64,000 nt of DNA from an uncultured Flavobacteriaceae bacterium (lineage in GTDB: Bacteria > Bacteroidota > Bacteroidia > Flavobacteriales > Flavobacteriaceae). Location: the NCBI GenBank assembly GCA_947494565.1, contig CANLVG010000007.1, forward strand, positions 1 to 64,000, given 5' to 3'. Below the pieces are notes generated by a model. The model had not been told where the DNA came from and made no database searches. It saw only the letters and a list, made by a program, of their open reading frames with translations. A program made the translations under genes and the position numbers. Shown here piece after piece: positions 1-54,938 of the stretch; positions within the stretch are counted from its first letter, which is position 1; each line of letters starts with the position of its first letter.

Positions 1-88
1 ATAACAACACTATGTATACGTAATGGCCGCTAAATGCCGGCGCTCCGCCAAAGCCACTGCGCATACACTTACCGTTGGCAATAATTTG
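1..88 (+). repeat. attC-like palindromic cassette element A (5' end cut by window)
   Basis: Imperfect inverted repeat. The inner box at about 11-27 (GTATACGTAATGGC) pairs with the right arm at 53-68 (GCCACTGCGCATAC). The outer right box is GTTGGC at 73-78, followed by AATAATTT. The left outer box would be CAAC at 5-8. The first gene starts about 25 bases after the right GTT. It belongs to the same family as the elements at 527, 2102, 2770, 4250, 5057, 51178 and 54798. Confidence 0.6.
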
Positions 89-99
89 AGAAAACGAAT

Positions 100-546
100 A
101 TGAAATTAATTTGGACATTCATTTTACTATTGACTTTCAATATCGGATTTTCGTGTACTTGTGAAAGTTCGGGTAAAATTGACAAAGAACAATTCAATCA
201 GTATGACTTAATTGCAACTGGAAAAATCTTGAGTGTTGACTTCGGAGAATTTACGCAAAAAATTGAAGTCGGAATCCATAGTGTATTTAAAGGACGAATA
301 AAGAAAATGACGATAGTTTTATCTACAAGCAGTCAATCAGGAATGTGTGGAATTTTCCCAAAAGTAGGAGAAAAATGGCTGATTTATGCAAATGGAAACG
401 GATATGAATTTTCGACTGACTTATGCACACGAACTCAAAATATGACAAGAGCAAGCGAAAAAAACACAGGAATAATAAAACGGGATTTGTATTTCTTGAA
501 AAAGAATTCGAATCGAAATAAAAACTATTGCCAACAATGGCTATAA
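100..546 (+). CDS. secreted NTR/TIMP-like hypothetical protein
   Basis: The 148-residue protein has an N-terminal signal peptide (residues 1-18) ending at FSC, so it may be a lipoprotein or start the mature chain with the CTCE motif. The pattern CxC, then an (I/V)ATGKI strand, VFKG, SxxSGxCG, a glycine-rich strand and a late LCTRT resembles bacterial netrin/TIMP-like OB-fold proteins; this is a family-level guess. The exact function is unknown. The last codons and the stop lie inside the left arm of the downstream repeat, so the C-terminal residues QQWL are encoded by the repeat. It is the first full unit of the cassette-like array. Confidence 0.7.
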   Translation: MKLIWTFILLLTFNIGFSCTCESSGKIDKEQFNQYDLIATGKILSVDFGEFTQKIEVGIHSVFKGRIKKMTIVLSTSSQSGMCGIFPKVGEKWLIYANGNGYEFSTDLCTRTQNMTRASEKNTGIIKRDLYFLKKNSNRNKNYCQQWL

Positions 547-664
547 GTAATTGCTTGTTCTCGCTTACTTCTGAAAATCCTCGCGGATTTTCAGTTTGGT
601 GTGTACTTGCAAAGTTAGTCCTTAACCACGCAACTACTCATAGCCGAGACCGTTGGCGGTAATT
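527..664 (+). repeat. attC-like palindromic cassette element B
   Basis: The left arm has GCCAAC (530-535), a short unpaired spacer, then GGCTATAAGTAATTGC. The right arm has GCAACTACTCATAGCC, a longer spacer and GTTGGC (652-657). Outer and inner boxes pair well; the spacers differ in length (about 3 versus 6 bases), giving an asymmetric internal loop as in attC hairpins. A small perfect hairpin (CTGAAAATCC / GGATTTTCAG, 571-594) lies in the loop. The next start codon is 19 bases after the right box. Confidence 0.75.
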
Positions 665-675
665 AACAAAACGAA

Positions 676-1239
676 ATGAGCAAAGAGCAAATTTGGATAG
701 AAGCAGGATACAAGACTTTTGCTTTTGAAGGTCCGCAAGCATTACGAATTGAAAAGTTGGCGAAAACAGTTCAAAAGAACAAATCTTCCTTTTACCATTT
801 CTTTTCCGACTTGGAGGTATTTACTGAACGCTTATTGGACTTTCATCTAATACAAGCGAAAGTAATGAGTGACAAAGAATCAAATGCTCAGAATGAAACG
901 GTATTAACTCAAATAATCCTTGAACATAAACTTGACCTGCTCTTTAATCGCCAGTTAAGAATTCATAGAGATAATTCAGATTTCCAGACCTGCTTTATCA
1001 AAACCAATGAGATTTCTTTACCAGGGTTTATGCCAATATGGAAAAAAGTAATTGATTTAAATGAAAATAACCATTTGGCTCAATTGGTATTGATGCTCAG
1101 TATAGAAAACTTTTTTCTTCAAATTACGGATGACACATTGAATTCAAGTTGGATTGCTGCTTATTTTGACAAAATAAGAGAAATGGTCAAGCTATTTAAA
1201 AGAACTAATTCTATTCCTGTAATGGACGGAGGCGTCTAA
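676..1239 (+). CDS. TetR/AcrR family transcriptional regulator
   Basis: This 187-residue protein has an N-terminal TetR-type helix-turn-helix (about residues 5-52; ALRIEKLAKTVQKNKSSFYHFF) and a divergent all-helical ligand domain. A palindrome (TGACCTA-N6-TAGGTCA) in the 49-base gap before the next gene is a plausible operator. The regulator would then control the two membrane-protein genes behind it. There is no repeat between these three genes, so they form one transferable unit. The ATG lies 19 bases after the cassette boundary. Confidence 0.85.
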   Translation: MSKEQIWIEAGYKTFAFEGPQALRIEKLAKTVQKNKSSFYHFFSDLEVFTERLLDFHLIQAKVMSDKESNAQNETVLTQIILEHKLDLLFNRQLRIHRDNSDFQTCFIKTNEISLPGFMPIWKKVIDLNENNHLAQLVLMLSIENFFLQITDDTLNSSWIAAYFDKIREMVKLFKRTNSIPVMDGGV

Positions 1240-1265
1240 AATAACTGATGATTCAACCTTAAATT

Positions 1266-1285
1266 TGACCTAATCAAATAGGTCA
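1266..1285. promoter_or_regulatory. putative TetR operator palindrome
   Basis: A perfect 7-base inverted repeat, TGACCTA - ATCAAA - TAGGTCA, sits between the TetR gene and the GTG start at 1289. Size and position fit a TetR-family operator overlapping the promoter of the following membrane genes. Binding by the neighbouring regulator is inferred. Confidence 0.5.
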
Positions 1286-1288
1286 GAT

Positions 1289-1735
1289 GTGAAAATTCCA
1301 TTTTACAGAACACAAAAATTCCATAAAAAGTATTTAAAGGTAACCGCATTTGTTGTTGGGGCATTTGGACCTATATTTTTCCTAGGCACTATGCTTAATA
1401 GTTCAGAGGCTGCACGTTGGACATTGGACTTTTTAAGTTGGCCAATTGATGGTGTTCAAGTTTATACTGAACCTACAACAAGGTTTTTATCTGCACTGAC
1501 AGGAGGCTTTTTATTTGGATGGGGAGTAATGATATGGTGCTTATCGATTTGGGTTTATGATAAAGCCCCTGAATTTGTAAGGCGCAGTGTCCTTATTGGT
1601 TTACTCTCTTGGTTTGTTTTGGATAGTGCGGGATCAATAGCCTCAGGAAATGATTCAAACGCAATTTTCAATATAATGGTACTTCTATTGGCAATTGGAC
1701 CAATGTGGGTGCCAATTAAAGAAAATGATAAATAA
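1289..1735 (+). CDS. small integral membrane protein, unknown function
   Basis: The 148-residue protein has about four predicted membrane segments (near residues 19-37, 66-88, 98-113 and 124-141). The start is GTG at 1289: the overlapping ATG at 1287 is followed directly by TGA, so it cannot be used. The motif TRFLSALTGGFLFGWGVMIW is distinctive, but I do not recognise a named family. It lies directly behind a TetR gene and a palindromic operator, and 7 bases ahead of another membrane gene, so the three are probably co-regulated. Confidence 0.65.
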   Translation: MKIPFYRTQKFHKKYLKVTAFVVGAFGPIFFLGTMLNSSEAARWTLDFLSWPIDGVQVYTEPTTRFLSALTGGFLFGWGVMIWCLSIWVYDKAPEFVRRSVLIGLLSWFVLDSAGSIASGNDSNAIFNIMVLLLAIGPMWVPIKENDK

Positions 1736-1742
1736 AATAAAT

Positions 1743-2096
1743 ATGAAACGAGAAAACAATCATTACTTTCTAAAAGGCCTCTTAATAATCCAGACACTTG
1801 GTTTATTAATCTATACAGTTATCGCAATTCAAAATGATGGATTCAGTTTTCTCGAAAGAGCAATAGAGTTCGCAATGTCTATGACGTGGATGGGCCAATT
1901 TGCATTGGATTTTCAATGTTACTTAATGCTTTCTGCCATATGGGTTGCTTGGCGAAATAAGTTCTCTATTAAATCGATTCTATTCGCAGTAATTGCACTG
2001 ATTCTAGGAATAATTGTTTTTGCACCTTATTTACTTTATCTCTTAACGAAAGAAAAAGGTGACTTGAAAAGAGTTCTAATTGGGGATAGGGAATAA
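1743..2096 (+). CDS. small membrane protein, possibly DUF2834-like
   Basis: The 117-residue protein has three predicted membrane helices (about 11-28, 47-66, 75-98). The middle region MSMTWMGQFALDFQCYLMLS recalls small DUF2834-type membrane proteins, a weak resemblance only. I chose the ATG at 1743, 7 bases after the previous stop; an upstream in-frame ATG at 1695 would overlap the previous gene by 41 bases. It is the last gene of a TetR-membrane-membrane unit and ends just before the next palindromic repeat. Confidence 0.6.
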   Translation: MKRENNHYFLKGLLIIQTLGLLIYTVIAIQNDGFSFLERAIEFAMSMTWMGQFALDFQCYLMLSAIWVAWRNKFSIKSILFAVIALILGIIVFAPYLLYLLTKEKGDLKRVLIGDRE

Positions 2097-2101
2097 AAAC
2101 T

Positions 2102-2240
2102 ATCGCCAACACGGTATAGAAGCAATAGCGGTTCGGGTGCAAACTCGAACCGTTTTTGTGTTTATTTAGGTATATTGATAATCGAAAAGAAGGAGCGTTT
2201 TAAGCCACTACTGCTCTTATACTAAACGTTAGCAACTATT
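2102..2240 (+). repeat. attC-like palindromic cassette element C
   Basis: The left arm has GCCAAC (2105-2110), then TATAGAAGCAATAGCGG. The right arm has CCACTACTGCTCTTATA, then GTTAGC (2228-2233). The inner boxes pair over about 17 positions with few mismatches. The loop carries a hairpin (CGGTTCG / CGAACCG, 2129-2152) followed by TTTTT, which could act as a terminator for the upstream unit. The right arm is nearly identical to that of the element at 54798-54938. Confidence 0.75.
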
Positions 2241-2257
2241 AGAAAAAACAACCAATT

Positions 2258-2767
2258 ATGAATAAACCAATCTTTAAAATTCTTGTATCTGCTGTCTTAC
2301 TTATCATAGGATTTGTATGTGGAAATTTTTACAACAAATCTAATGATGAGCCGAAAAAAGAAATAGTAACAAGTGGCTCTGATTTTGAAATGATTCAAGA
2401 AGTTACTAATGAATTCGTAACTGCCTGGATAAATGGAGATGCTGAAGGATGTGCAAATACATATTCAGAAAATGCTGTGTTTATGGTTCCAGACCAACCA
2501 TCTTATCACGGAAGAAAAGCAATTAAAGACCGTTACGCAGAAATGTTTAACAAACGGAATGACTCAACTCTCATTGAGATGACTGAAACAGTAAAGGAAG
2601 TAATTATGCTTGATGATTGGGCTGTAATTAGAGGTTCTGGATTTGAAACGAGAGATTCAGAAGGAGCAAGCGGAACATACAAATGGATAATATTGAGTAA
2701 AAAACAACCAAATGGGAAATGGGAATCTGTTTGGGATATTTTTAATGACGTAGAAGACGTAAAATAA
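2258..2767 (+). CDS. membrane-anchored NTF2-fold protein (DUF4440/SnoaL-like)
   Basis: Residues 1-25 form a signal anchor. Residues 45-165 match the NTF2-like fold of the DUF4440/SgcJ type: an EFVTAWINGDAEGCANTYSE helix pair, a PSYHGRKAIKDRYAEMF motif, and closing WxxxWDIFN strands. Such domains often bind small hydrophobic ligands or act as isomerases; no substrate can be named. It is the only gene between two palindromic elements. The ATG is about 28 bases after the right GTT, and the stop is 5 bases before the next left arm. Confidence 0.75.
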   Translation: MNKPIFKILVSAVLLIIGFVCGNFYNKSNDEPKKEIVTSGSDFEMIQEVTNEFVTAWINGDAEGCANTYSENAVFMVPDQPSYHGRKAIKDRYAEMFNKRNDSTLIEMTETVKEVIMLDDWAVIRGSGFETRDSEGASGTYKWIILSKKQPNGKWESVWDIFNDVEDVK

Positions 2768-2769
2768 CA

Positions 2770-3030
2770 GTTGCTAACAATGCCTATAACAAATAGGGCA
2801 TAAAGTGCTAAATTTAAAGGCTTGGGGGTGTTTACAAAGTCCGCCAAATCTTTTAGATTTACTCATGTGATTTCTATTTTCAATAAGGAATTCGTGATAA
2901 CGCTGCGCTAAGTTGGCAATTAAAATGAAAAAAATAATTACAAAACAAAAAGCTCTTGCTAGCAGACCAGACGGAAAAGAAAACTTTCCTTGCCCCCGTA
3001 CTAAGCTTAGCCCAACCGTTAGAGTTCATT
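2770..3030 (+). repeat. attC-like palindromic cassette element D (long subtype)
   Basis: The left arm has GCTAAC (2773-2778), then AATGCCTATAACAAATAGGGC. The right arm is GCCCCCGTACTAAGCTTAG, then GTTAG (3018-3022). The interior is long and shares two blocks with the element at 5057-5288: 2803-2850 (CTAAATTT...GGCTTGGG...AGTCCGC) and 2943-3010 (GACGGAAA..GAAAA..TTTC..TTGC). These two therefore form a subtype. No gene is evident in the interior. Confidence 0.65.
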
Positions 3031-3042
3031 ATAAATTAAACA

Positions 3043-3612
3043 ATGTTCGACAAGATTAGCCCTATTATCCATTCTGTTTCACCTGTTTCAAGTAATTCAA
3101 TTGAAAAAATAAAGAATTTAGTCGAATACACTAACATAAAAAAAGGAGAGCCAATAACCACCGTTGGACAAAAGAATAATCTAGAGTATTTTATGATTGA
3201 TGGTATCTGCAAAAGTTTTCTAAACACACCCGAAGGAGAAAGTGTGACGATTTCTATTTTCATGGCTAATTCGATAATATCACCAAGTACTACAAGAAAT
3301 CAAAATGGTAAATCCGTAATTAATATACAAGCTTTAACAGATGTTGAGATCGCAGCTTTCAATGCTTCAGAGTTTGAAAAATTAATGATTGAAGATCTAG
3401 AAATTCGAGATTTTGGAAATTCTGTCTTAAGAATTGAACTTATGGCGAAGGTCCAGAAAGAAATAGCTTTAGCTTCACTTAAAGGAAAAGAACGGTTACT
3501 TATATTAAGAAAGAATTACCCGAATATCGAAAACCTCATACCACATTCCGATATTGCTTCATATTTAGGAATAACTACTATTTCTTTAAGTAGATTAAGA
3601 ACACAATCTTAA
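3043..3612 (+). CDS. Crp/Fnr family transcriptional regulator
   Basis: A 189-residue protein with an N-terminal cyclic-nucleotide-binding-type beta barrel (about residues 15-120; GEPITTVGQKNNLEYFMIDG) and a short C-terminal helix-turn-helix (HSDIASYLGITTISLSRLR). It is slightly shorter than classical Crp, as is common for Bacteroidota members, and no phosphate-binding cassette for cAMP is clear. It is paired with a membrane-protein gene 69 bases downstream, with a TTGTTTT-N6-AAAACAA palindrome (3657-3676) between them. The same regulator-plus-target layout recurs at 55 kb and 57.7 kb. Confidence 0.8.
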   Translation: MFDKISPIIHSVSPVSSNSIEKIKNLVEYTNIKKGEPITTVGQKNNLEYFMIDGICKSFLNTPEGESVTISIFMANSIISPSTTRNQNGKSVINIQALTDVEIAAFNASEFEKLMIEDLEIRDFGNSVLRIELMAKVQKEIALASLKGKERLLILRKNYPNIENLIPHSDIASYLGITTISLSRLRTQS

Positions 3613-3656
3613 CGCTTATCATTTGTTAATGGAATCGCCATATGAATTGGCAACCT

Positions 3657-3676
3657 TTGTTTTCTAATCAAAACAA
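3657..3676. promoter_or_regulatory. palindrome upstream of membrane gene
   Basis: TTGTTTT - CTAATC - AAAACAA is a perfect 7-base inverted repeat directly upstream of the ATG at 3682 and just downstream of a Crp/Fnr-type regulator gene. It is a candidate operator, but the spacing is longer than the usual FNR geometry (TTG-N8-CAA), so chance in A+T-rich DNA remains possible. Confidence 0.3.
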
Positions 3677-3681
3677 TAATT

Positions 3682-4275
3682 ATGTCAATTCTAAATTCAT
3701 TCCTTCTAAAAACTTCCTCAGTAATGACATTATGTATCTCATTTGTAGCAAGTCACTTTGTCTTGCTGATTATGATGATATATACTTTTCCGGTAATCAA
3801 TAATCAAATTGGGGCTAAGGCATTTGACCTCCTACCTTTTGGGTATTCGGTTTCTGAAGCAAAATCAATTGTGAGCAACTTGAATAATCCAAGTGCTGAC
3901 CTTTACCTTTTTCCACAATTAACTTTGTTAGATCTACTCTACCCTTTTCTACTGGCTTTGTTCTTAAGTAGTCTATTATTTCGGCTTATTAAAATAACGG
4001 AGTCAAAAAGGAAATTCGCATCGATATTCTTGATTATTCCATTTCTGGCGATGATATCCGATTATTCAGAAAACATATGTATTATATTAATGATCTCAAA
4101 ATCAATTGAGATATCTGAAACGATCGTGATTTTATCGAGTACATTTACCGTTTTAAAAGGAGTCCTAACTTCAATTTCATGGGTAACCATCTTGGTATAT
4201 GCTACGAAATGGTTTAGGTTGAAAATTCTATACAGAAATAAAAAACAAACTCTAACAAAACCTAAACCGCATTAA
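3682..4275 (+). CDS. integral membrane protein, unknown function
   Basis: The 197-residue protein has about four predicted membrane segments (near 12-36, 82-102, 111-132 and 150-178) and a basic C-terminus (YRNKKQTLTKPKPH). I do not recognise a family. Its last codons overlap the left arm of a very short palindromic element, so the repeat encodes the C-terminal lysine- and proline-rich tail. It is probably controlled by the Crp/Fnr-type gene 69 bases upstream. Confidence 0.6.
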   Translation: MSILNSFLLKTSSVMTLCISFVASHFVLLIMMIYTFPVINNQIGAKAFDLLPFGYSVSEAKSIVSNLNNPSADLYLFPQLTLLDLLYPFLLALFLSSLLFRLIKITESKRKFASIFLIIPFLAMISDYSENICIILMISKSIEISETIVILSSTFTVLKGVLTSISWVTILVYATKWFRLKILYRNKKQTLTKPKPH

Positions 4276-4308
4276 AACGCAGTTTAGCCAAACCTTTGGC
4301 AGCAATCT
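4250..4308 (+). repeat. attC-like palindromic element E (minimal form)
   Basis: A compact version of the repeat: CTAAC (4252-4256), CCTAAACCGC (4261-4270), an 8-base loop, GCAGTTTAGCC (4279-4289) and TTTGGC (4295-4300) followed by AGCAAT. It keeps the outer box, spacer and inner box but has almost no loop, at about 60 bases in all. The outer G of GTT is replaced by T. The left part is coding for the upstream gene. Confidence 0.5.
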
Positions 4309-4359
4309 CGTCTTTACCAAAAAGGTTATATTTATATCATTATCAGTCCTTAGCAAATC

Positions 4360-5082
4360 ATGGCAATTAATACTCCATATGACAAATTCTTAGTAGTAGC
4401 AATTGTATGTTGCTTTCTATCCGTTCTAACGACCCTTGGGATTCACTCCAATCTATTTGATTTAGGAGAGTTGAGTTTCGATGATCGGATAAGACTCTTT
4501 GAAAATTCAAAATACATTGCGAATAGATTCTGGATAATTATACACTGCTTATTTGTATTAATAGCCATGTTGGGTTTCTTATTGATACAGTTTAAAAAGA
4601 GTCGAGGATTTACAATTTTAGGTTTTGTGTTCTTCGCTGTATTTGCATTTACTGAAATCTTTCGGCAGATGTTCGTTTTCTTCTACATGAACAATCTACG
4701 TAGATCCTACCTCGAAACTGATAGTGAAGCGATGCGCGAGATAATACAAGTTAGTATGGATCATGCAGGCTTAATTGGTTATGCTCTTTTTGGCTTGTTC
4801 ATTGTGGCATTTGCATTGGGAAACATATGTTATGGAATCAGTCTACTTGGCAACAATAAGATTGATCGTATACTCGCTTACCTCTTGTTAATTTGGGGAT
4901 TTGGTAACTTACTTGCCTTTGGAAACGAATTTTGGACATCTGAATCAATAGGGCATTTTGTCGAATACTTTAGTATCATTTATCAACCGATAATGAGAGT
5001 ATTAGTAGGTTTATGGATGTTGCATAAATTTAAGCGAATTACTGTCAGTGAGGGAGCAGGCAACAATACGTATAGCGCATAG
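4360..5082 (+). CDS. integral membrane protein, possibly DUF4386-like
   Basis: The 240-residue protein has six predicted membrane helices (about 10-28, 55-75, 81-102, 133-160, 168-186, 203-224). Length and helix layout fit the DUF4386 type of membrane proteins, but this is only a resemblance and no function is known. It is the only gene of its unit. The final codons GNNTYSA and the stop come from the left arm of the following palindromic element. Confidence 0.6.
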   Translation: MAINTPYDKFLVVAIVCCFLSVLTTLGIHSNLFDLGELSFDDRIRLFENSKYIANRFWIIIHCLFVLIAMLGFLLIQFKKSRGFTILGFVFFAVFAFTEIFRQMFVFFYMNNLRRSYLETDSEAMREIIQVSMDHAGLIGYALFGLFIVAFALGNICYGISLLGNNKIDRILAYLLLIWGFGNLLAFGNEFWTSESIGHFVEYFSIIYQPIMRVLVGLWMLHKFKRITVSEGAGNNTYSA

Positions 5083-5288
5083 TTCTAAATTTCATGGCTT
5101 GGGCAAGTTTGCTGAGTCCGCAATCCGGATAGCTATTAGGATAGGGTTTTGCTCTGGACAAGAAAAAATAAATCAAGATCTGCCTCTCCGGCAGGCCGGC
5201 AATAAGCTTTAGCTTCATGCGCGGACGGAAACGAAAAGTTTCTTTGCTTCCGCACAACGCTTAGCTCAGCTGTTGTAGCGAATTTACC
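5057..5288 (+). repeat. attC-like palindromic cassette element F (long subtype)
   Basis: The left arm has GGCAAC (5059-5064), then AATACGTATAGCGCATAG. The right arm is CCGCACAACGCTTAGCTC, then GTTGTAGC (5272-5279). Inner boxes pair around TAGCG/CGCTTA. Its interior shares two blocks with element D, including CTAAATTT..GGCTTGGG (5084-5105) and GGACGGAAACGAAAAG (5223-5238). The next ATG is 29 bases after the right GTT. Confidence 0.65.
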
Positions 5289-5300
5289 AAAGCCAATTAA

Positions 5301-5768
5301 ATGCTTGAATTAATTCTTTCGACTTTAGCAGAATTTGGACTAATTCGTGAGGATTATAAACATCGAAAACGAATAAGTAAAAAGGAAAAAGAAGACGGTA
5401 CGAAAAGACCTATTCAAAAATACTTTCTACAACCCAGTTCAATAATGATTATTTCGCTTTTAATAGTTATAAGTATAAGCTCATTTCTATTTTTTGGTTA
5501 TCAAAGAAAATCTATCTACCCTGATAAAACTAAAAAAGAAATAGCTGAAATGAGCGATAGAATGGAGAATTGGTATGAAAAGCTCGGAAAATATCCTACG
5601 GACTTGAATGAATTAATCGGAAATAGTCCTTTAAGACAAGATTGGAAAAAAGACGCTTGGAATCGAGAATATGAATTTAAGATTACGGAAAATGGGCAAG
5701 GGTTTTTAATCACTTCTGCCGGTTCGGATGGAAAATTTAAAACGGAAGATGACATCAAATCGGAATAA
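5301..5768 (+). CDS. membrane protein with GspG-like pseudopilin C-terminal domain
   Basis: The 155-residue protein has one membrane helix (about 48-67) after a charged cytoplasmic N-terminus (KHRKRISKKEKEDG). The C-terminal domain (about 85-155) looks like the globular part of type II secretion major pseudopilins: YEKLGKYPTDLNEL, DAWNREYEF, and the calcium-site-like SAGSDGKFKTEDDI. There is no prepilin peptidase motif at the N-terminus and no secretion system nearby. It is therefore an orphan, membrane-tethered GspG-like domain. It overlaps the following small membrane gene by 20 bases. Confidence 0.7.
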   Translation: MLELILSTLAEFGLIREDYKHRKRISKKEKEDGTKRPIQKYFLQPSSIMIISLLIVISISSFLFFGYQRKSIYPDKTKKEIAEMSDRMENWYEKLGKYPTDLNELIGNSPLRQDWKKDAWNREYEFKITENGQGFLITSAGSDGKFKTEDDIKSE

Positions 5769-6009
5769 AAGAAATTTAAAAATTGTTGGACTTTATATTA
5801 TTAGCCTAGTCTGCATATTTTGCTATTTATTGATGGAGCACTATAACGTCATCTTCGTAGTCCTTAAAAAATGGCCTCAAAATCCCGATGGCGAATTTGT
5901 CACACTTGTTTTTACTGGATTACTCCAATATGGGTTATTGGTAGTTGGAATATGCATTTTCTTAATGCTGAGTTTTATACTAATCAGAGAGACAATTAAA
6001 AACGATTGA
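5749..6009 (+). CDS. small two-helix membrane protein, unknown function
   Basis: Reading from the ATG at 5749 gives 86 residues with two predicted membrane helices (about 11-28 and 50-75) and a basic start (TSNRNKRNLK). An in-frame ATG at 5728 would add seven residues. The gene overlaps the end of the GspG-like gene in another frame, which suggests translational coupling. It is the last gene before a lone left arm of the palindromic repeat. I do not recognise a family. Confidence 0.55.
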   Translation: MTSNRNKRNLKIVGLYIISLVCIFCYLLMEHYNVIFVVLKKWPQNPDGEFVTLVFTGLLQYGLLVVGICIFLMLSFILIRETIKND

Positions 6010-6023
6010 ATAAGATAAAAACG

Positions 6024-6056
6024 TGCTCCAACAACACCTCCTATGAAAAGCGCTAG
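6024..6056 (+). repeat. half element G (left arm only) at the end of the cassette array
   Basis: CTCCAAC (6026-6032), then a short spacer and CTATGAAAAGCGCTAG, looks like the left arm of the repeat family, but no matching right arm with GTTRGC follows before the groEL terminator. It may mark the fixed border of the array or a deletion scar. The call rests on one arm only. Confidence 0.4.
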
Positions 6057-6130
6057 TCCAGTTTCCTAAGGATCATACATCGGTGCTTTTTAAGATAGTA
6101 CTTACACCAAATTCATATAGAAAAAAGAAA

Positions 6131-6214: not shown

Positions 6215-7861
<1,647 letters not shown>

Positions 7862-54797: not shown

Positions 54798-54938
54798 TTG
54801 CATGACAACGTATAAAATCAATAGCTATATAAGGTGTAAATTCAAAGTTCTATAATTTTCAATTTAGTATATTGCTTTATCCTATGTAATTCCACTTTAT
54901 ACGCTACTGTTCTTATACTAAACGCTTAGTGTACTTTT
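54798..54938 (+). repeat. attC-like palindromic cassette element I
   Basis: The left arm is GACAAC (54804-54809), then TATAAAATCAATAGC. The right arm is GCTACTGTTCTTATA, then AAACGCTTAG (54921-54930). The inner boxes pair over about 12 of 15 positions. The right arm GCTACTGTTCTTATACTAAA is almost the same as that of element C (2207-2226). The outer right box is worn (GCTTAG for GTTAGC). Confidence 0.6.

Follow-up and report, generated by a model that had tools for sequence, protein, structure and literature searches.

An integron-like cassette array at a contig end of an uncultured Flavobacteriaceae bacterium and its association with an Xer-type recombinase

Organization of the array at the contig start

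The DNA analysed here, referred to as the window, is the 64,000-nucleotide stretch at the start of contig CANLVG010000007.1 (C7) of an uncultured Flavobacteriaceae bacterium (assembly GCA_947494565.1; 5.39 Mb in 45 contigs). Positions 1–6060 consist of co-directional small genes alternating with palindromes, beyond which groEL lies on the opposite strand (6215–7849, minus strand). Sequence comparison confirmed this segment as the putative distal, partly decayed end of an array of gene cassettes, and it very probably forms the terminal part of an integron-like chromosomal platform in which an Xer-type tyrosine recombinase would act on attI-like and attC-like sites. There is no integrase within the window, a Pfam scan found no immunity genes among its cassettes, and an Rfam scan of the window returned a single match, a tRNA.

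All elements and cassettes of the array lie on the plus strand. The array opens with the attC-like element E0 (6–76, 71 nt), whose AAC end lies at the contig start and which scored 40.7 bits with a covariance model built from 46 elements. Cassette 1 (75–652) starts with GTTGGCAAT (74) and ends with ATTGCCAAC (527–535), the two ends being complementary at 9/9 positions; its open reading frame (100–546, 148 amino acids) had no Pfam match, and the stop codon falls within the attC-like site. Elements E1 (533–654, 122 nt) and E2 (2108–2230, 123 nt) scored 115.5 bits (E 1.4e-22) and 80.9 bits, respectively, both being among the 46 elements of the model. Between them, cassette 2 (653–2228; start GTTGGCGGT at 652, end ATCGCCAAC at 2110, 8/9 complementary) carries three open reading frames, one with a weak TetR_N match (676–1239) and two for small, probably membrane proteins (1289–1735 and 1743–2096). 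Cassette 3 (2229–3018; start GTTAGCAAC at 2228, end GTTGCTAAC at 2778, 9/9) encodes a SnoaL/DUF4440-like protein (2258–2767), and cassette 4 (3019–4295; start GTTAGAGTT at 3018, end AACTCTAAC at 4256, 9/9) a cNMP-binding, Crp/Fnr-like protein (3043–3612) as well as a second open reading frame (3682–4275). Among random GTT/AAC pairs, 9/9 complementarity occurs in 0.036%.

The site between cassettes 3 and 4, E3 (2776–3020), belongs to a long class and matched the covariance model weakly (16.1 bits); it was delimited by comparison with copies of its class on contig C3. Its right arm reads TTAGCCC-AACC-GTT (3008–3020). An earlier interpretation made from the letters of the stretch alone (the sequence-only reading) had placed this element at 2770 and ended it at GTTGGC (2913). 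According to the C3 copies, that motif lies inside an inserted piece of the loop and the true end is the GTT at 3018–3020. The E3 loop has about 50 nt (about 2858–2912) that are extra relative to these copies.

Towards groEL the sites degenerate. E4 (4254–4297), a short element read from the sequence, has TTT (4295–4297) in place of GTT. Cassette 5 (4296–5272) encodes a protein of 240 amino acids, probably a membrane protein (4360–5082), and its decayed ends are complementary at 6/9 positions. E5 (5062–5274) was likewise read from the sequence and fits the left-arm pattern with one mismatch. Cassette 6 (5273–6045), with a T2SSG-like open reading frame (5301–5768) and a further one (5770–6009), also has decayed ends (7/9) and terminates in a lone, degenerate left arm (AAC, 6030–6032). 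Since the end match is as low as 6/9 and 7/9 in the two units nearest groEL, the distal end of the array is decayed. The six elements and the lone arm of the sequence-only reading are real, although E4 (its element at 4250), E5 and the arm are degenerate.

End complementarity as a property of the cassette

Directly after a palindrome, a unit opens with GTT and a variable box, and the reverse complement of this box stands just before the next palindrome. In the direction of the cassettes, examples of unit start and end from the C3 array are GTTGTGCGC...GCGCACAAC and GTTAGGCAC...GTGCCTAAC, and the pair GTTAGCAAC...GTTGCTAAC is a further example of the rule. The rule was counted on elements located through the inner stem alone (252 places). 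The six bases after GTT matched the six before the next AAC at 6/6 positions in 144 of 183 units, whereas the same comparison across a single palindrome gave a match in 8 of 249; random pairing would give about 1%. Judged by these counts, the paired ends are a property of the presumed mobile unit, as in attC, and not of the palindrome.

The outer boxes are varied, with 89 different boxes among 249. Since the outer pairing joins the start of a unit to its end, the motifs GCYAAC and GTTRGC, which had been taken for a fixed core paired within each palindrome, are no fixed consensus and are instead specific to the cassette. The remark that the core is unlike GTTRRRY holds, as this motif fits 4.8% of the boxes.

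Structure of the sites

Structure was analysed in 171 distinct elements. The left spacer has 3 nt in 161 of these, while the right spacer has 6 nt in 124 and 5 nt in 40. The inner stem is 16 bp long, and 13 of its positions are paired in at least 93% of the elements, with many compensatory pair types, a count biased towards paired positions since the elements were selected by pairing. The bias leaves unaffected the A.C mismatches at stem position 7 (91%) and position 12 (99%). Their polarity is fixed, with A in the left arm and C in the right arm, so that the bottom strand reads T.G. The bottom strand was predicted to be the more stable one in 151 of the 170 elements in which the strands were compared (p 4e-24). 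The test of single-strand folding suggested by the sequence-only reading thus revealed a strand asymmetry, and the A.C mismatches may take a strand-marking role.

In loci of other Bacteroidota (L192, L198, L202, L187, and L189) the inner arm is distinct (AACAGCGGTTTGGC.. and AACAGCACC..). Since the inner arms differ in this way, the site families seem to be lineage-specific.

Recurrence in the genome and the family

In the genome from which the window derives, the left-arm pattern gave 18 matches against none with a reversed control, and the covariance model found many further elements, most of them on one strand of C3 (about 438–491.7 kb) and others on the small contigs C18, C19, C21, and C22. 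Together with scores of up to 115.5 bits, these counts bear out the earlier view that the palindromes are real elements, well beyond what chance would give. The 71-nt site E0 is letter-identical at four contig ends (C7:1, C3:491702, C19:5794, and C21:3350) and precedes four different cassettes. As four contigs end in one site, it appears that the assembly breaks at repeated recombination sites, and cassette counts in this genome are lower bounds.

The wider search that had been proposed found elements in 106 of 120 genomes of the family. Up to dozens of cassettes occur per genome, in most of the sampled Flavobacteriaceae, and cassettes are found on plasmids too.

Exchange of whole cassettes

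Comparison of 155 cassettes yielded 62 near-identical full-length pairs, nearly all of them in G027, a completely sequenced genome from the same family. There, near-identical cassettes stand between unrelated neighbours in several places: a 1677-bp cassette occurs twice, in copies that are 100% identical, lie about 550 kb from each other, and have unrelated flanks, and a 558-bp cassette is present in at least 10 copies. In the window's genome, the cassette that starts with GTTGTAATCAATTTACAG stands behind an attI hairpin in C11 but behind an ordinary attC-like site in C22, with the joint at GTT both times. Two genomes of one genus share a cassette of about 1.05 kb, which in each of them stands at the attI of a different integrase; the sequences left of GTT have no base in common, and the next cassettes are unrelated. 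Whole units with GTT boundaries have therefore been exchanged within this genome, within G027, and between species, as the sequence-only reading had predicted for a cassette system.

At C11:1–104 and at the end of C22, the first C11 cassette contains the C-terminal part of a transposase gene that points at the integrase, and the contig breaks there.

The recombinase and its attI-like site

The statement that the array has no integrase is correct for the window but not for the genome, which encodes a tyrosine recombinase, P0001 (375 amino acids, C11:162–1289), with an attI-like hairpin and then a first cassette behind its gene. In G027 the array starts 115 nt past the stop codon of a tyrosine recombinase of 390 amino acids, which is encoded in the direction of the cassettes. 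Homologues were found in 84 of the 120 family genomes, and elements are present in 82 of these 84 as opposed to 24 of the 36 without a detected integrase (Fisher p 7e-6). The co-occurring tyrosine recombinase for which a search had been recommended is thus present, immediately 5' of arrays.

A conserved attI-like site lies 40–130 nt past the recombinase stop codon; it ends at GTT, and the ends of the cassettes behind it are complementary to it. Downstream of the recombinases of group A it resembles TATATTTG-N5-ATATAACNA followed by GTT, and downstream of those of group B, which includes P0001, it is a hairpin such as AATAAACACACTAGTGTGTTTATACACAT followed by GTT. With the recombinase immediately 5' and in the direction of the array, all 20 group B loci examined have the site and 17 have elements; in the other three the stretch stops 160–170 nt past the gene, with the attI hairpin and GTT box present. 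Most group A loci also have the recombinase immediately 5' of the array in the same direction. A division of the two groups into array and non-array enzymes was considered and rejected, since array loci lie behind both.

The layout is repeated among relatives from further families and classes of Bacteroidota. It was also found in named species such as Winogradskyella ursingii, Seonamhaeicola aphaedonensis, Algibacter onchidii, and Rufibacter sp., and on plasmids of Rufibacter and Chryseobacterium. Relatives of about 300 amino acids from Proteobacteria, Firmicutes, and other phyla were without arrays. Inside the array on the plasmid of Chryseobacterium sp. SNU WT5 (L259) there are two inserted elements, a group II intron and a transposase of the IS110 family. 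IS110-family transposases and group II introns target the attC sites of canonical integrons.

The catalytic residues R235, K260, H324, R327, H350, and Y359 are invariant across 32 array recombinases. P0001 has an N-terminal domain of about 95 amino acids (with strands and helices at about residues 1–75), followed by core-binding and catalytic domains, and it has no IntI-specific domain. Its best family model is NF040815 (XerA_Arch), and the nearest neighbours of its predicted structure, which has fair confidence (pLDDT 84, pTM 0.55), are XerA (5hxy) and VchIntIA (2a3v). The likeness to XerA/XerH and simple Xer-type recombinases consists in this best family model and in the structural neighbour XerA; the array recombinase differs from the simple Xer types in its own N-terminal domain and its linkage to cassette arrays, the relatives of about 300 amino acids having neither.

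Comparison with canonical integrons

Canonical attC sites are bounded by AAC and GTT, and 9–11 of their end bases are complementary; the central spacers differ in length, a G and a T are extrahelical, and the loop varies (PMC2727003). The array system shares with integrons a tyrosine recombinase, a neighbouring attI, co-directional cassettes of small genes, and decay towards the distal end, as well as sites bounded by AAC and GTT with self-complementary ends of about 9 nt, central spacers of unequal length, and a terminal loop that varies. The cassette-recombination system of Bacteroidota on the attC plan, as put forward in the sequence-only reading, is supported by the recurrence of the elements in the family, by the exchange of whole units at GTT, by the single-strand folding with its strand asymmetry, and by the recombinase next to the arrays. 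The differences lie in the R box, which reads GTTRN.. rather than GTTRRRY, in the two A.C mismatches that take the place of the extrahelical G (L'') and T 6–8 nt further in canonical attC, and in the recombinase, where the IntI-specific domain is missing and an additional N-terminal domain is present. Matches to TIGR02249 stayed below its cut-off of 265, at 197 and 208 bits. In P0001 about 43 residues are absent where the IntI-specific domain sits in VchIntIA (2A3V), and the KxR-to-HxLRH spacing is 60–66 in 91 array recombinases compared with 103 in 15 canonical IntI of the same phylum. In phylogenetic trees, IntI formed a separate, well-supported clade grouped with non-integron recombinases and not with the array enzymes.

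Canonical IntI above the cut-off was found in 105 of 395 Bacteroidota genomes and is common in other classes; none of the 105 belongs to the window's order or family and one belongs to its class. It was excluded in the window's own genome. Cassette orientation was rejected as a distinguishing trait, because the integrase also points the same way as its cassettes at several loci with canonical IntI in this phylum. Eight genomes (G155, G158, G159, G160, G169, G250, G307, and G433) combine canonical IntI above the cut-off with a strong match to the array-recombinase profile.

Overall, a probable attI beside the integrase, the attC plan, and whole-unit exchange at GTT agree with an integron, but the IntI-specific domain, the GTTRRRY core, and the extrahelical bases were not found. 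Tested in this way, the system is not a canonical integron. Since it seems to work like an integron and falls outside IntI, it is fairly likely that it represents a second integron lineage apart from IntI, a common gene-capture platform of Bacteroidota that would recognize folded single-stranded sites through two A.C mismatches (G.T on the bottom strand) and do so without the IntI domain, with the rAID immunity arrays discussed below as a specialized branch.

Proposed mechanism and alternative explanations

In the proposed scheme, the Xer-type recombinase would act on the attI-like site past its own stop codon and on the attC-like palindrome that ends each cassette. A cassette holds one to three small genes, begins with GTT and a variable box, and ends with the reverse complement of this box, AAC, a 3-nt spacer, the 16-bp stem in which positions 7 and 12 are A.C, the loop, a spacer of 5–6 nt, and GTT. 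Excision between G and TT would release it as a circle, which would bring the two half-boxes together as a matched site. An extruded single strand, probably the bottom one as marked by G.T in place of A.C, would then be recombined into attI or another site, and the N-terminal domain may have a role in these steps. New cassettes would enter beside the integrase, so that the oldest, such as those of the window, would decay at the far end.

Several observations weigh against this interpretation. The window array is not contiguous with the integrase contig in the assembly; since the two are on separate contigs, the link between them is one of kind and not of contiguity. Elements also occur in the 24 genomes without a detected integrase mentioned above, for which loss of the integrase, gaps in drafts, or recombination in trans are possible explanations. 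The grouping of all array recombinases in one clade has weak support (66/15), and the stem-pairing counts carry the selection bias already described. Furthermore, the IntI-specific domain is held to be essential for the action of IntI on folded attC (PMC8138268), and a recombinase without it makes the single-strand route uncertain. One alternative is that the sites are ordinary double-stranded ones, such as dif/pdif-like modules recombined by XerC/D or by the linked recombinase, the palindrome then being a terminator, an mRNA end, or something of another role. The kinship of the recombinase with XerA and Xer enzymes (NF040815) and its lack of the IntI domain would fit such duplex sites. However, the AAC and GTT half-sites of one integrated palindrome mismatch, and only circle formation would bring matching halves together, as in attC; moreover, the stem covaries and the mismatches at positions 7 and 12 keep one polarity, features that would be meaningless to a duplex. 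This explanation is therefore unlikely.

Less likely still is an integrase-less canonical array (CALIN) built by IntI, with attC outside the usual consensus. The plan of R box, unequal spacers, stem, and variable loop is shared with attC, the window has no integrase, and canonical IntI does exist in the phylum. Yet the IntI genomes are distributed outside the window's order and family as described, the arrays examined at their 5' end carry the other recombinase, and the canonical IntI loci of Bacteroidota show GTTAGGC/GTTAGAC units, in contrast to the low GTTRRRY fit of the present boxes; two A.C mismatches are also not extrahelical bases. Finally, the elements might be intergenic repeat palindromes (REP/BIME-like sequences or terminators) that transposition or gene conversion has scattered among immobile cassettes, and the many near-identical palindromes per genome would fit this. 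It is the units that move, however, and not the palindromes: identical cassettes have different neighbours and GTT boundaries, and the unit ends are unique to each unit and self-complementary. This makes the last alternative highly improbable.

Relation to rAID arrays and significance

Recombinase-associated acquired interbacterial defence (rAID) clusters of gut Bacteroidales were reportedly described by Ross et al. 2019. A homologous arrangement was found by a tblastn search of plasmids. On a plasmid of Bacteroides ovatus BFG-107, from blood (L257), a recombinase with 42% identity to P0001 across 98% of its length precedes immunity genes of the SMI1/KNR4, Imm26, PoNi, and Tdi1 types. The intergenic sequences follow the same plan with ATT for GTT, and the ends are 8/8 complementary in 9 of 11 units, as read manually at this one locus, whose array the scan for GTT units had missed because of the ATT start. 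The passages on rAID in PMC12247911 describe short co-directional genes with conserved motifs between them, which lie behind a predicted tyrosine recombinase, the cassettes being orphan immunity genes of the type VI secretion system; in those passages rAID is not called integron-like. What the present system shares with rAID is a homologous tyrosine recombinase ahead of short genes that run in one direction and are separated by intergenic motifs, while the unit start (ATTA as opposed to GTTR) and the cargo (immunity genes as opposed to diverse small genes) differ from the window. It appears from these similarities that the rAID arrays of gut Bacteroidales are members of the array system. The literature searched contained nothing on the same system beyond rAID; within this literature, the suggestion of an undescribed system holds apart from these immunity arrays.

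Integrons have been reported as rare in Bacteroidetes, where first only In0 and then one complete integron, that of Salinibacter ruber, were known (PMC9024848). Integron surveys rely on the IntI domain and on attC models, and since the present system has neither the IntI domain nor the GTTRRRY core, such surveys probably miss it. The system may serve as a natural test case for the need of an IntI domain in recombining folded single-stranded DNA, would explain how rAID arrays gather immunity genes, and may open a large unexplored pool of mobile small genes.

A solitary decayed attC-like element lies elsewhere in the window, distant from the array (54804–54926, plus strand; 54.2 bits, E 3.7e-9). 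Its right core reads GCT and not GTT, it adjoins a Crp/Fnr-like gene, and it is perhaps the remnant of an old cassette.

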